From: Amycolatopsis coloradensis
Lineage (GTDB): Bacteria; Actinomycetota; Actinomycetes; Mycobacteriales; Pseudonocardiaceae
Reading direction: 5' to 3'
Assembly: GCF_001953865.1 (NCBI RefSeq)
Contig: NZ_MQUQ01000002.1
Location: 114,047 to 178,046, forward strand
DNA: 64,000 nucleotides
In this document: in pieces, positions 8,531 to 23,179 of the stretch
How positions within the stretch are numbered: position 1 is the stretch's first letter
Layout: the number at the start of each line of letters is the position of its first letter
Notes under the pieces: model-generated
What the model saw: only the letters and a program-made list of their open reading frames with translations
What the model was told of the DNA's origin: nothing
The model's database searches: none
Translations under genes and position numbers: made by a program

Positions 8531-9637
8531 TCAGTTCTCAGCGGCAAGCTGACCGCAAGCCGCGGCGATCTCCTGGCCACGCGTGTCCCGCACCGTGCAG
8601 GCGACCCCGCCCGCGTTCACCAGCCGGACGAACTCGCGCTCCACCGGCTTCGGCGACGCGTCCCACTTCGAGCCCGGGGTCGGGTTCAACGGGATCACGT
8701 TCACGTGCACCAACTGTCCCAGGTGCTGGCGCAAGCGCTTCGCCAGCAGCTCCGCCCGCCAAGGCTGGTCGTTGATATCGCGGATCAGCGCGTACTCGAT
8801 GGACACCCGGCGCCCGGAAGTGTCCGCGTAGTACCGGGCGGCCGACAGCACCTCGTCCACCGACCAGCGCTCGTTCACCGGTACCAGCGTGTCCCGCAGC
8901 TCGTCGTCCGGCGTGTGCAGCGAAACGGCGAGACGCACCTGCATCTTCTCGTCCGCCAGTTTCCGGATCGCCGGCGCGAGCCCCACCGTCGACACCGTCA
9001 CCGAACGCTGGCCGATCCCCAGGCCGTCCGGCGAAGGATCGGTGATACGCCGGACCGCGGCGACCACACGCTTGTAATTCGCCAGCGGTTCGCCCATGCC
9101 CATGAAGACGATGTTCGACAGACGGCCTGGGCCGCCGGTCATCCCGCCGTCGCGCATCACGGCGGCGGCCGAGCGGACCTGGTCGACGATCTCCGCCGTC
9201 GAAAGGTTCCGGTCGAGGCCACCCTGCCCGGTCGCGCAGAACGGGCACGCCATGCCGCAGCCCGCCTGGCTCGAGATGCACAGGGTCGCGCGGTCCGGGT
9301 AGCGCATCAGCACGCTCTCCAGCAGTGTCCCGTCGTGCGCGCGCCACAGGGTCTTACGGGTGGTGCCGTCGTCGCAGGCGAGCGCCTTGATCTCGGTGAG
9401 CAGCGCCGGCATCAGCTTGCCGACGAGCTTCTCCCGCGACGCCGCCGGGATGTCGGTCATCTCCTCCGGGTTCACCGTGAGCCGCGAGAAGTAGTGGTTC
9501 GACAGCTGCTTCGCGCGGAACGGCTTCTCACCCAGCTCGGCGACGGCCTCGGCCCGCTCGGCGGCGGTGAGGTCGGCGAGGTGGCGCGGCGGGAGGCCAC
9601 GTTTGGGCGCGTCGAAGACGAGAGGGAGGGCAGTCAT
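8531..9637 (-). CDS. rlmN: 23S rRNA/tRNA adenine-C2 methyltransferase RlmN
   Basis: A 368-residue radical-SAM enzyme that methylates C2 of A2503 in 23S rRNA and A37 in some tRNAs. The Fe4S4-binding CxxxCxxC motif is in [19 protein letters not shown]. Other family blocks are seen: [27 protein letters not shown]-type [12 protein letters not shown], and the conserved C-terminal cysteine in [15 protein letters not shown], which forms the methyl-carrying intermediate. The length is typical. In actinobacteria this gene usually lies close to cdsA and frr; here accessory genes have been inserted between them. Confidence 0.95.
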
Positions 9638-19953: not shown

Positions 19954-20336
19954 TGCCGGAATCAACCTCTTCTGTGTCGTGCGCGCCCGGCTCCGCCGGG
20001 ACCGCGCTTGCTCGGTTCGTCGCTCTCGGCCGGGTGGCCGGTCGCCCTGGTGCAGATGCTCGGGCCCGGACCCGGAAGTGAAGTGACTCCTGGGACCGCC
20101 GGGCCGTGTGCTCCCGGCTGTCCTGACCCTCCGTGAGGAGATCGGCCATCGGGAGCGCGCACGTGCACGCGAAGTCAGTCCGCTGCCGCGGACCGCGCAA
20201 AAGAGTCTACTCCCTGTCGTCACCGTCTACCGCACCGGCAGCCCCTGCTGAGAGCGGTTGTCCACAACCGCCTCGGTTATCCACAGATTCCCTCGGCGCG
20301 TCCCGCTCGCCACGCCGGTCCCCCAGGCTGGAACAC
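19954..20336. other. Divergent intergenic region between rpsB and the M23 peptidase gene
   Basis: About 380 bp with no gene. It must carry the rpsB leader and promoter and the promoter for the rightward peptidase gene. On the minus strand TAGACT (20204-20209) could be an rpsB -10 box, but no good -35 is visible. Two perfect DnaA boxes lie at 20258-20285. Confidence 0.4.
20258..20285 (+). promoter_or_regulatory. Pair of perfect DnaA boxes
   Basis: TTGTCCACA (20258-20266) and TTATCCACA (20277-20285) are both exact DnaA-box consensus sequences, in the same orientation, with starts 19 bp apart. They lie upstream of the M23 gene and of the likely rpsB promoter. Two boxes do not make an origin; a DnaA-controlled promoter is the more likely role. 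Confidence 0.5.
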
Positions 20337-20948
20337 ATGACGTTGACGACCTGTTCCCGCCCTGTCACCAGGCATTCCTTCGCGATCGACCGGATCGGCG
20401 GCAGGCACCGCCGTCCCGGGCGGCCGAGGCGCCTGCCGCGCGTCGCGGTCCTCGCGGCCGTGCTCGTGATCCTGACTTCCACCGCCGCCCCGGGAACGGC
20501 CAGAGGCTCGCCTTCGCCGCAAGGAAGGCTCTCCTGGCCGCTCTCACCGGCACCCAGCGTCACCAGGTACTTCGAGCCGCCGTCGACGCCGTACGGCCCC
20601 GGCCACCGCGGGGTCGACCTCACCGCCGCACCGGGCACGAACGTCCTCGCGGCCGCCGAGGGAGTGGTGATGTTCGCCGGCCAGGTGGCGGGCCACGGCG
20701 TGGTTTCGATCGATCACGAAGGAGGCTTGCGCACCACTTACCAACCTCTCGCCCCGACCGTCACCGCGGGTGATCAGGTCCATCGGGGCCAGGTGCTCGG
20801 AACGGTCGCCGCCGGCCATCCGGGCTGCCCGGAGACGGCTTGCCTGCATTTCGGTGTCCGGCGGGGAGAGGAGTACGTCGATCCACTCGCGCTGATCGGC
20901 GAACCCTCCGAGATCCGCCTCAAACCGTGGGAAGGAGACCAGGCGTAG
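20337..20948 (+). CDS. M23-family (LytM) peptidase-like protein
   Basis: 203 residues. A basic N-terminus and one hydrophobic segment (VAVLAAVLVILTSTAA, about 36-51) act as signal peptide or anchor. The LytM domain follows: GHRGVDLTAAPGTNVLAAAE supplies His90 and Asp94, and VSIDHEGGLRTTYQPL is the central sheet. The usual HxH near the end appears as ACLHFGV, so the first His is Cys169 and only His171 remains. This Cys form is familiar in actinobacterial members. Members cut peptidoglycan cross-links or act as activators of other amidases. A weak ribosome site (CTGGAA) precedes the ATG. Confidence 0.8.
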   Translation: MTLTTCSRPVTRHSFAIDRIGGRHRRPGRPRRLPRVAVLAAVLVILTSTAAPGTARGSPSPQGRLSWPLSPAPSVTRYFEPPSTPYGPGHRGVDLTAAPGTNVLAAAEGVVMFAGQVAGHGVVSIDHEGGLRTTYQPLAPTVTAGDQVHRGQVLGTVAAGHPGCPETACLHFGVRRGEEYVDPLALIGEPSEIRLKPWEGDQA

Positions 20949-21005
20949 GTGACGACCTCGGTGACCGGCCCGTTCGCCGGGCTCGCGGTCGTGCCGGAGG
21001 GCGTG

Positions 21006-21199
21006 ACTCGCGTGATCAAGCACCGCACTCACGTGCTCGAAGACCGAACTCGCGGGCCCGAACCCCGCACTCACGTGACCGGAAGGCGCACTCGCGTGTG
21101 CGGTGCCTGATCACGCGAGTGCGGTCTCCAAGCACGCGAGATCCGCCTCCGGCACGCGAGTGCGGGGTCCGGGCACGCGAGGTCCGCGGCTGATCACGC
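21006..21199. repeat. Ten-unit array with 21-bp period and internal inversion
   Basis: Five copies of ACTC(G/A)CGTG start at 21006, 21027, 21048 (a shortened copy), 21069 and 21090, exactly 21 bp apart. They are followed by five copies of the reverse complement CACGCGAGT starting at 21112, 21133, 21153, 21174 and 21195, again 20-21 bp apart (the last shortened). The central pair GCACTCGCGTG (21088-21098) and CACGCGAGTGC (21112-21122) is a perfect 11-bp inverted repeat. The array fills the gap between the ends of the convergent M23 and whiG genes. It may form a long branched hairpin in RNA, or present two-helical-turn-spaced protein sites in DNA. Confidence 0.8.
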
Positions 21200-21227
21200 C
21201 TGGGGCGTCGCTCGGTGACGCGGGAGG

Positions 21228-22187
21228 TCAGGCCGTCTCGACGAGTTTCGCGCGCAGCCGCATGACCGCGCGGGTGTGCAACTGGCTGACCCGCGACTCG
21301 GTGACGCCGAGGACCTTGCCGATCTCGGCGAGCGTCAGGCTCTCGAAGTAGTAGAGGCCGACCACGATCCGGTCGCGTTCGGTGAGCTGCGCGATCGCCT
21401 GCGCCAGCTGGCGGCGGTTGTCCTGGTCGACCAGGACGGCCACCGGGTCGACGGCGCCGTCGTCGGGCAGGGTGTCGACCAGCGAGCCGCTGTCCTTGCC
21501 GGCGGCGACCAGGTCTTCCAGCGCGATGACGCTGGTCAGCTGCAGCTGGCCGTAGAACTCGCGCAGGTCATCGACACTGATTTCGAGTTCGGCCGCCAGT
21601 TCGGCGTCGGTCGGCGTGCGGTTCAGCCGGGCGCCGAGGCGTTCCAGCGCGCGTTCGGCCTCGCGGGCCTTGCTGCGCACCGCACGGGGCACCCAGTCCT
21701 GGGAGCGAAGATCGTCGAGGATCGCGCCGCGGATGCGCTGCATGGCGTAGGTCTCGAATCGCAGGCCCCTGGCCGGTTCGAACTTCTCGATCGCGTCGAC
21801 AAGGCCGAAGATCCCGGACTGGATCAGGTCGCCCACGTCGACGTGGGTCGGCAGGCCGGTGCCGACCCGGCCCGCGACGTACTTGACGAGCGGGGCGTAG
21901 TGCAGCACCAGCCGGTCGCGCACCATCTGGTCCGGCGACTCGGTGAACTGACGCCACAACGCCTGAATCCCGGCGTCCACCTCGTAGCCCGTCCGCGATT
22001 CGGGCGCGACGGCAGGACCGGCACCGCCGGGACGGTGTTTCCCGGCGGTCTCGGTGACATGTGGGTCGGCGGTCATCGGACCGCCGTTCTCACCATGCGA
22101 CTCAGAGTGGTCTCCGTGCTCGTGCGGATGCGCGTGCGCCGCCGGTTCGGGCCGCCGGGTCACCTGCCGAGTCCTCCCCGGCATCAT
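21228..22187 (-). CDS. whiG: WhiG/FliA-type RNA polymerase sigma factor
   Basis: 319 residues with a His/Gly-rich N-terminal extension of about 70 residues, then sigma70 regions. Region 2 includes [20 protein letters not shown] and [20 protein letters not shown]; region 3 runs through [20 protein letters not shown]; region 4 has [20 protein letters not shown]. This is the motility/sporulation class without region 1.1. In spore-forming actinobacteria WhiG drives early aerial-hypha sporulation genes and is held by an anti-sigma factor (RsiG) with c-di-GMP. The ATG at 22187 overlaps the xerC stop as ATGA, which supports the full-length start; an ATG at 22076 is an alternative. Confidence 0.9.
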
Positions 22188-23179
22188 CGGGCCCGGGGGT
22201 GCGCGCGGTCGTGGATCGCCTTCAGCCGATCGACGGTCACATGAGTGTAGAGCTGCGTCGTAGCCAGCGTAGCGTGACCAAGCAGTTCCTGAACGCTCCG
22301 AAGATCGGCGCCGCCTTCGAGCAGATGGGTGGCCGCCGAATGCCTCAGTCCGTGCGGGCCCATGTCGTTCGCGCCCGGCACTGAGCCGACGGCGTCATGG
22401 ACCACCCGGCGGGCGGCCCGCGGATCGAGCCTGCCGCCTCGCGCCCCCAGGAAGAGCGCGGCTTCCGCCGGTCCCTTCGCTTCAACGGCGAGCCTTCCCC
22501 TGCCCTCCTCGAGCCACACCCGCAAGGCCGCTTCGGCGGGGACGCCGAACGGCACGACGCGTTCCTTGCCGCCCTTGCCCAGCACGAGCACGACCCGGCG
22601 GGAGAAGTCGACGTCGCCCACGTCCAGCCCGCACAGTTCGGACACCCGCACTCCGGTCGCGTAGAGCAGTTCCACGATGGCACTGTCCCGCAAAGCGACC
22701 GGGTCCCGCTGTTCGGCACCGGCGGCTGAAAAGCGCATGACCTCGCTCGCCTGCTCCGCCCGGAGGACCCCGGGAAGCTTGCGGTGTGCGCGTGGCGCCA
22801 CCAGTCGCCCGCCCGGATCGGACGCGAGCGCGCCACCCCGGTGTGCCCACGCGGTGAAGGTGCGGGCCGCCGCCGCCCGCCTGGCCAGGGTCGTCCGGCT
22901 GGCCCCTTCCTCGCGTTGACGCGCGAGCCAGCCGCGCAGCGTCCCGATGTCCAGGTCTTCGAGCCTGCCGCCGTTCCCGTCCACGAAGCCGGTCAGCGAC
23001 ACGACATCGCCGAGATAGGCACGCACCGTGTGCGCGGACAGCCCGCGTTCCAGGGAAAGGTGCCGCTCGTAGTCGTCGATCAGCTTCCGGACAGGCTCCG
23101 GCAGCGCGGCACGGGCGGCACGCAGATCGGGCCTGCGGGCGCGTTTTCCCGTGCCGTGGGGACCTTCGGTCGACGGCAT
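22184..23179 (-). CDS. xerC: Tyrosine recombinase XerC
   Basis: 331 residues. The N-terminal SAM-like core-binding domain includes [21 protein letters not shown]. The catalytic domain has the full set: Arg in [12 protein letters not shown], Lys in [10 protein letters not shown], His-x-x-Arg in [12 protein letters not shown], His in [11 protein letters not shown], and the nucleophile Tyr in LYTHV. With XerD it resolves chromosome dimers at dif. The gene lies in the conserved dprA-xerC-whiG order and its stop overlaps whiG. An ATG 16 codons further upstream is less likely because it precedes family sequence. Confidence 0.92.

Follow-up and report, generated by a model that had tools for sequence, protein, structure and literature searches.

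Helically phased 21-bp repeat arrays at gene ends of Amycolatopsis and related genera

The arrays described here form a dispersed repeat on a 21-bp lattice with conserved sites in a short core, which lies at the 3' ends of genes, occurs patchily and, in the samples searched, within one family, and turns over fast. One of them is located in a stretch of 64,000 nucleotides from Amycolatopsis coloradensis, the whole of which is called the window in the following. Core conservation, a helical phase which continues through forward-to-reverse flips, and a sharp contrast between closely related species together suggest that a protein acts on these arrays in trans. Tentatively, and with a confidence somewhat short of an even chance, we read the arrays as helically phased sites for a putative DNA-binding protein at gene ends, where they perhaps stop transcription.

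According to this reading each array would offer docking sites for a putative, probably dimeric DNA-binding protein, the site being presumably the pseudo-palindrome C-W-C-R-Y-G-T-G. Sites every 21 bp, that is every two helical turns, would place the bound molecules on one face of the DNA, where they could touch and, as we infer, bind cooperatively. As the core is nearly its own reverse complement, a flip of orientation in register would hardly alter the lattice. Arrays are positioned after stop codons, either in convergent gaps or at a good distance from the start codon that follows, and the bound lattice might act there as a boundary which halts RNA polymerase or absorbs supercoils, beside hairpin terminators or instead of them. 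If the lattice is indeed bound by a protein, it would represent a marking of gene ends in high-GC actinomycetes without an RNA hairpin, and the sharp difference between close species would make the missing factor findable by gene-content comparison. The arrays are abundant in antibiotic producers and bear on how gene ends are read and engineered.

The array between the M23 peptidase and WhiG-type genes

Nine clear ACTC(G/A)CGTG units and one weak unit constitute the array in the window, which follows a 21-bp lattice and takes up most of the 279-bp gap between the genes of an M23 peptidase and a WhiG-type sigma factor. The features are listed below; genes were called with a codon-bias gene finder, retrained, whose accuracy was checked in the window only.

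20133..20948, + strand: M23 peptidase gene, convergent, left of the array, 57 bp from stop codon to array
20968..20982, no strand: small hairpin GCCCG/CGGGC in the stretch from M23 stop codon to array (by eye)
21006..21026, + strand: forward unit 1, core ACTCGCGTG at 21006-21014 plus 12-nt spacer; 20.9 bits
21027..21047, + strand: forward unit 2, core ACTCACGTG; 24.3 bits
21048..21068, + strand: forward unit 3, core ACTCGCGGG with one mismatch; 8.3 bits
21069..21089, + strand: forward unit 4, core ACTCACGTG; 15.8 bits
21090..21098, + strand: forward core 5, at the flip; unit 10.8 bits
21100..21120, - strand: reverse unit 1, core 21112-21120; 21.0 bits
21121..21141, - strand: reverse unit 2, core 21133-21141 with one mismatch; 19.5 bits
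21141..21161, - strand: reverse unit 3, core 21153-21161, after a 20-bp step; 8.3 bits
21162..21182, - strand: reverse unit 4, core 21174-21182 with one mismatch; 9.2 bits
21183..21203, - strand: fifth reverse unit, weak, a 21-mer; 5.7 bits
21205..21221, no strand: small hairpin GCGTC/GACGC in the stretch from array to whiG stop codon (by eye)
21228..22187, - strand: WhiG-type sigma factor gene, convergent, right of the array

All steps between the forward cores, which start at 21006, 21027, 21048 (one mismatch), 21069 and 21090, are 21 bp long; the clear reverse cores start at 21112, 21133 (one mismatch), 21153 and 21174 (one mismatch), with steps of 21, 20 and 21 bp. Across the flip the core centres of forward core 5 and reverse unit 1 are 21 bp apart. 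The original prediction, made from the letters of the window, had described five forward and then five reverse units on a 21-bp period, with the orientation flipping at the centre, between convergent M23 and whiG genes. Period, flip and neighbouring genes are confirmed, and so are the five forward and four of the reverse units, but the fifth reverse unit is weak, scoring 5.7 bits versus 8.3-21.0 for the other four. Calling the whole one large inverted repeat was correct insofar as complementarity amounts to 73-89% in the four longest arm pairs; in the family as a whole the unit order of one arm does not mirror that of the other.

A pattern of two cores with up to three mismatches matches eight times in the window, always inside the array, versus a mean of 0.57 in shuffled sequences, and none of 100 shuffles reaches eight. 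The single core is less striking, with seven matches in the window (six of these in the array) versus 2.41 expected. Tandem Repeats Finder gives a period of 21 for both arms, and RNA folding of the gap gives a z of -6.5. No T-run terminator was found between 20700 and 21500, and for 20000-22500 Rfam 15 reported nothing above the gathering score, the best of four sub-threshold matches reaching 23.7 versus 77.5 bits. Each of the two small hairpins which flank the array is possibly a residual terminator, and by eye a 5-bp hairpin is possible in the 16-mer 21087-21102 around forward core 5. A frame of 117 aa with (H/N)SR repeats crosses the array (20840-21193, + strand); it has no Pfam match, and the idea of a coding repeat was rejected, the frame being judged a chance product of the period of 21 bp.

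A dispersed repeat with conserved core sites on a 21-bp lattice

In the genome of the window 43 pairs of exact cores were found versus 0 for a reversed-pattern control, and all 43 have a spacer of 12, with 11 to 13 permitted in the search. When two mismatches are allowed the numbers are 193 and 5. The original prediction had mentioned related strings between genes in Amycolatopsis; exact pairs are present in 43 of 80 genomes of this genus, with strict counts from 1 to 252. A second core type, ACACRYGTG, occurs in 38 of the 80, the spacer before it often ending in GGACG among the places listed. While six genomes have only the first type and one has a single pair of the second, 36 of the 80 lack both. 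The listed arrays are about 50-430 bp long, and some 160 arrays per genome are obtained by extrapolation from 45 gaps with at least two units in 2.52 Mb.

In a sample of the family, pairs are present in 28 of 297 genomes and in seven of 46 genera. Two of these seven (g24, g28) have at most two pairs per genome, which could be chance or unrelated repeats, and in one genome from another genus (G182) the control was not clean (15 versus 24 pairs). A sample of the same order outside the family gave no pair in any of its 310 genomes. The genus-specific mobile repeat that had been proposed as one possibility is therefore a lineage-specific dispersed repeat, wider than a genus. Named carriers among the matches listed (80 of at least 117 loci) are many Amycolatopsis, three Prauserella and one Pseudonocardia. 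Ten genomes from six other genera also have the core, with 12-nt spacers which differ and are in part specific to a genome; as the search in these genera requires the core, it is the spacer comparison alone that is informative there.

Three viral contigs have the pair, which by rough estimate is few enough for chance. Two of these contigs (L150:8482-8545, and L149 near 9490-9555) contain three copies of the perfect palindrome TTACTCACGTGAGTAA at intervals of exactly 21 bp, in L149 as judged by eye, possibly as a convergent phased operator array; they were judged to be unrelated to the arrays. The same holds for two MAG loci (L043, L053), and a Planosporangium locus (L041) was left out because it was placed inside a gene. 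These three, each a single listed locus, and the three viral ones are excluded from most of the later counts.

The consensus of the unit is ACTCGCGTGATTGGAGGCGGA. Its core is a pseudo-palindrome only, six of eight positions of the consensus matching the reverse complement by inspection. Because the loci had been picked by exact cores, core conservation was retested on units picked by spacer similarity alone, with at least 8 of 12 matching spacer sites as the sole criterion. In these 380 units C2, C4, C6, G7 and G9 agree with the neighbouring unit in 91-94%, and ten of the twelve spacer sites do so in 70-83%. The core positions A1, T3, G5 and T8 are kept in 77-86%, no better than many spacer sites, and spacer sites 18-19 in 92-93%.

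Spacing was analysed in seven 360-kb blocks which were chosen by synteny and not by array content. Of 97 consecutive cores 9-70 bp apart, 95 lie at an exact distance of 21, 42 or 63 bp (85, seven and three cases, respectively), one at 41 and one at 62, with 0 for the reversed-word control; these are same-strand sites at helical multiples, as in a phased array. In forward-to-reverse flips of the blocks the centre distance modulo 21 is 0 in 15 of 19 cases, 20 in three and 10 in one, so that 18 of 19 are within 1 bp of the lattice. A larger, mostly pattern-picked set has 50 of 58 such flips at 0, 20 or 19, seven at 9-10 and one at 2. That orientation can change in register may be due to the core being close to its own reverse complement. 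Several points speak against a phased boundary. No binding protein was found (Y1 transposase and ParB were tested and excluded), and reverse-to-forward junctions are mostly off the lattice: three of seven are within 1 bp of it in the blocks, and in the larger set one of 13 is within 2 bp, with 11 at 7-10 and the others at 1 and 18. The less well kept core positions, the turnover of individual arrays, the few divergent arrays, the graded occurrence and the loss of the hairpin shortage on length matching, each given here with its data, count against it as well.

Neighbouring spacers differ at 3.79 of 12 sites, i.e. about 8 of 12 are alike, and in gaps of these genomes that lack arrays 460 indels were counted versus 2617 substitutions, or 0.176 indel per substitution. 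Given this spacer divergence and this indel rate, more off-lattice steps would be expected without constraint, and the strict spacing suggests that constraint is what it reflects; partly the constant spacing could be a by-product of unit copying. The original prediction had named loss of the 21-bp spacing at other loci, or absence of the unit elsewhere, as the results that would count against it. Both were checked and the spacing is kept and the unit present, so that this test failed to refute it. Its statement that the array is no CRISPR is also supported by the period of 21, the similarity of neighbouring spacers and neighbourhoods without a common gene.

In four genomes (G131, G161, G182, G004) some units have a fuller 16-bp dyad, ACTCG-N6-CGAGT (by eye), which would set inverted half-sites one helical turn apart.

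Turnover between close species and the search for a partner

The gap next to whiG differs between species whose WhiG proteins are 96-97% identical: compared to the forward-reverse array of the window it contains a single-orientation array, a reverse-forward array or none, and in some of these species the other core type is found (by eye). Orthologous gaps at 92-97% mean protein identity have gained or lost arrays, the empty sites measuring 13-39 bp, and in close relatives the layout is often retained with a varying number of units. Conservation of individual arrays at orthologous sites is limited to close relatives, so that none of them seems essential to its neighbours. Beside the array inserted in gap 200 of G019 the 3' end of the neighbouring gene is partially duplicated, over about 25 bp including the stop codon; the counterpart is a gap of 13-14 bp in three relatives and of 14 bp in a fourth.

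The occurrence of arrays was compared with a midpoint-rooted tree of 66 genomes, based on one 2-kb locus (input 30 + 40 genomes, four of which were dropped because the gene end was not recognised; 10 of the 80 were left out). For the 37 tree genomes with at least five pairs six changes are needed, versus a mean of 21.7 and a minimum of 14 after shuffling. With two mismatches allowed, four out of 17 chosen genomes have 158-249 pairs, G034 has nine and twelve have 0-4. Such differences are also found between neighbours in the tree, as in G018 with 206 relaxed pairs versus 0 in G030, and in G029 and G067 with 199 and 249 versus one in G040. The occurrence is not strictly all-or-none, as seen from the strict counts of 1 to 252 and the nine relaxed pairs of G034. 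G006 has four mismatched pairs left, some of which resemble decayed remnants.

These observations can also be read in terms of selfish or neutral satellite-like repeats, whose units are copied and moved and survive where they are harmless, past stop codons and away from promoters; core and spacing would then be what a putative copying activity recognises. We regard this as possible, if doubtful. It would account for the 36 of 80 genomes without both core types beside others rich in them, for the decayed-looking remnants in G006, for the fast turnover at orthologous gaps with their short empty sites, for the copy number shifts between close relatives and for the partial target duplication beside the array in G019. 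However, a passive satellite needs neither forward-to-reverse flips in phase nor cores kept at 42 and 63 bp, and neither a Y1 transposase nor a neighbourhood gene beyond 7 of 112 loci was detected. If they are selfish, the arrays would stand out among repeats by their order, being strictly phased with the helix and having no known transposase.

A further version of the protein-bound reading, which we think rather unlikely, assumes a lineage-restricted protein system for ending or insulating transcription, in which a dedicated DNA-binding protein would assemble on the phased arrays and a linked activity would seed these past stop codons throughout the genome; nearly all of them would vanish when the protein is lost. 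Protein loss in a lineage would yield the pattern of many or almost none between close species.

The Y1/RAYT transposase (PF01797) was rejected as a partner, since it was found in none of the 80 genomes (control positive in 5 of 14). The repeat bears a resemblance to parS. The ParB HTH is present as one copy in 76 of the 80 genomes, with or without arrays, and a ParB paralogue which follows the arrays was rejected as the copy number is the same regardless of them. Around 112 loci the largest cluster of a common neighbour gene comprises seven loci, common families by eye, and the idea of a gene carried along with the arrays was given up. For the protein-bound array of the original prediction this means that helical phasing and conserved core sites favour binding, but that no protein was found.

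Similar to the arrays as read here, iterons and other phased operator arrays consist of direct repeats with a length of about 21 bp, to which proteins bind cooperatively on a single face of the helix. Unlike iterons, the arrays are dispersed at many gene ends and not confined to one origin, and their neighbourhoods have no initiator or repressor gene in common. A REP unit is a palindrome of 20-40 bp, unlike the array unit, which has a core of 9 bp and keeps strictly to a lattice of 21 bp. A palindromic stem-loop as repeat unit was not found in the arrays, as the core is pseudo-palindromic and most single-orientation arrays are unfolded. With no Y1 transposase in 80 genomes, the statement that this is no known REP unit stands.

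For REP/BIME with RAYT, the parts of PMC2817692 considered here report more than 100 extragenic copies, clusters in both orientations, species specificity and fast dynamics, and mention termination and chromosome structure as suggested roles. The arrays are likewise extragenic, of high copy number and clustered. They differ in that the array genomes are without a Y1/RAYT gene (0 of 80) and in that runs of equal orientation, often with one flip, take the place of the BIME alternation. STAR elements of Staphylococcus, in the passages of PMC3532100 used here, have a 14-bp core interspersed with at least 40 bp, and three named STAR loci lie upstream of genes. Arrays and STAR share the character of interspersed intergenic direct repeats with a short core and spacers, abundant in some species, scarce in relatives and variable in copy number. 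Unlike the named STAR loci the arrays follow stop codons, and helical phasing or flips do not appear for STAR in these passages. In the open-licence literature, no description was found among the matches listed for the core word (both orientations) and actinobacterial repeats; the passages considered from PMC7852140 count 404 tandem repeats in the Amycolatopsis orientalis genome without describing them, and A. mediterranei is included in a table of species with satellites in the part of PMC6749651 considered.

Placement relative to genes, RNA folding and terminator hairpins

In the seven blocks seven units lie within genes (2243 kb) and 97 within tandem gaps (144 kb), compared to 111 within convergent gaps (48 kb), the richest class with 2.33 units per kb. 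Divergent gaps of these blocks (388 gaps, 85 kb) contain no unit. A coding repeat was rejected on the basis of these seven units in genes versus 208 in the 192 kb of tandem and convergent gaps. Among 113 arrays of at least three units, a set of mainly pattern-picked loci plus four blocks, 67 are located in convergent, 43 in tandem and three in divergent gaps. Stop codons are at a median distance of 24 bp (n=177) and start codons at one of 227 bp (n=49), and in tandem gaps 38 of 43 arrays are closer to the stop codon. The gap type was assigned for 28 of 30 loci from other genera, among which some arrays appear twice, and none is divergent. The placement after stop codons suggests either a role at gene ends or tolerance there. 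A link between the orientation of units and genes was rejected, as tandem gaps have 157 antisense versus 113 sense units and convergent gaps hold several layouts.

The abundance in convergent gaps would also fit BIME-like sites which organise the chromosome, at which gyrase or a nucleoid protein would bind and take up the supercoils that arise in convergent gaps, without taking part directly in termination. Both the helical phasing and the listed array lengths (about 50-430 bp) would be compatible with wrapping of the DNA in a complex. We consider this very improbable, because the near-absence of arrays in close relatives of rich species fits a general need poorly.

Inverted arrays fold strongly as RNA, with a mean z of -9.9 for 61 forward-reverse and of -7.8 for 16 reverse-forward arrays. 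The 26 single-orientation arrays, out of 106 arrays subjected to folding, are mostly unstructured (median z -0.27, mean -0.98, 23% below -2), so that the stable RNA hairpin of an intrinsic terminator is not found in every member. A shuffled order of units alters folding little (mean z -0.32 +/- 0.15, p=0.07, 31 arrays), and mirror-image arms created by inverted duplication were rejected, since spacer similarity shows no diagonal. With most single-orientation arrays unfolded, unmirrored arms and little effect of the unit shuffle, RNA structure is unlikely to be the shared function. Of the structured 3' end in the original prediction the position survives, supported by arrays beside stop codons and the empty divergent gaps; the structure does not, given the values of the single-orientation arrays. 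The U-tract-less intrinsic terminators of Streptomyces, as far as described in the passages of PMC8269248 considered, are similar in 3'-end position and in strong structure when the array is inverted, but the arrays are a dispersed repeat with conserved core and spacing, a quarter of those subjected to folding being in single orientation and mostly unstructured.

Strong hairpins (score at least 12) occur in 139 of 226 array-free convergent gaps versus 24 of 380 divergent gaps; being common in the former and rare in the latter, most of them are probably terminators. At two loci an array occupies the slot in which relatives have a hairpin, namely gap 66 of G060 (five of six relatives) and gap 278 of G063 (four relatives). 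A separate hairpin is found in 24 of 75 convergent array gaps versus 139 of 226 array-free ones in an unmatched comparison (p=1.7e-5, computed with 138 of 227 array-free gaps), for which the 75 gaps were drawn from pattern-picked loci as well as from blocks and may include mutual orthologues. When gaps are matched for free length, the deficit of hairpins next to arrays loses its significance (odds ratio 0.65, p=0.11). Up to 150 bp of free length 2 of 43 array gaps have a hairpin versus 112 of 164 array-free gaps, and above 150 bp array and hairpin coexist, in 22 of 32 versus 48 of 101. With two slot swaps and a p of 0.11 after length matching, a replacement of hairpin terminators by arrays is only suggestive.

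It is against this background that RNA-hairpin terminators or stabilisers of mRNA 3' ends have to be weighed, in which the arms pair in the transcript and the arrays are large, U-less bidirectional terminators. The strong folding of inverted arrays including that of the window, the position just past stop codons and the two loci in hairpin slots of relatives agree with this. Yet single-orientation arrays, although mostly unfolded, have a separate hairpin as frequently as inverted ones (13 of 39 versus 25 of 83, p=0.83), the order of units in the arms is unmirrored and its shuffling alters folding little, and a 21-bp period is not demanded by RNA pairing. We therefore hold this explanation to be quite unlikely. 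The impression by eye that arrays grow away from a terminator hairpin was dismissed, with a mean z of -0.04 for 5' flanks (n=135) and -0.54 for 3' flanks (n=72).

Several families of hairpins, 40-60 bp long, are found repeatedly at gene ends and exchange places between orthologous gaps (L181-L252, L283-L336); they look like mobile terminator modules. In total the seven blocks contain 388 hairpins with a score of at least 14, of which 154 belong to no family, and the largest family, CGTGAAGGCC, has 53 members. In G025 and G060, in the gap orthologous to gap 45 of G002, a repeated hairpin spans the gene end with the stop codon in the loop region, which would alter the C-terminus of the protein.
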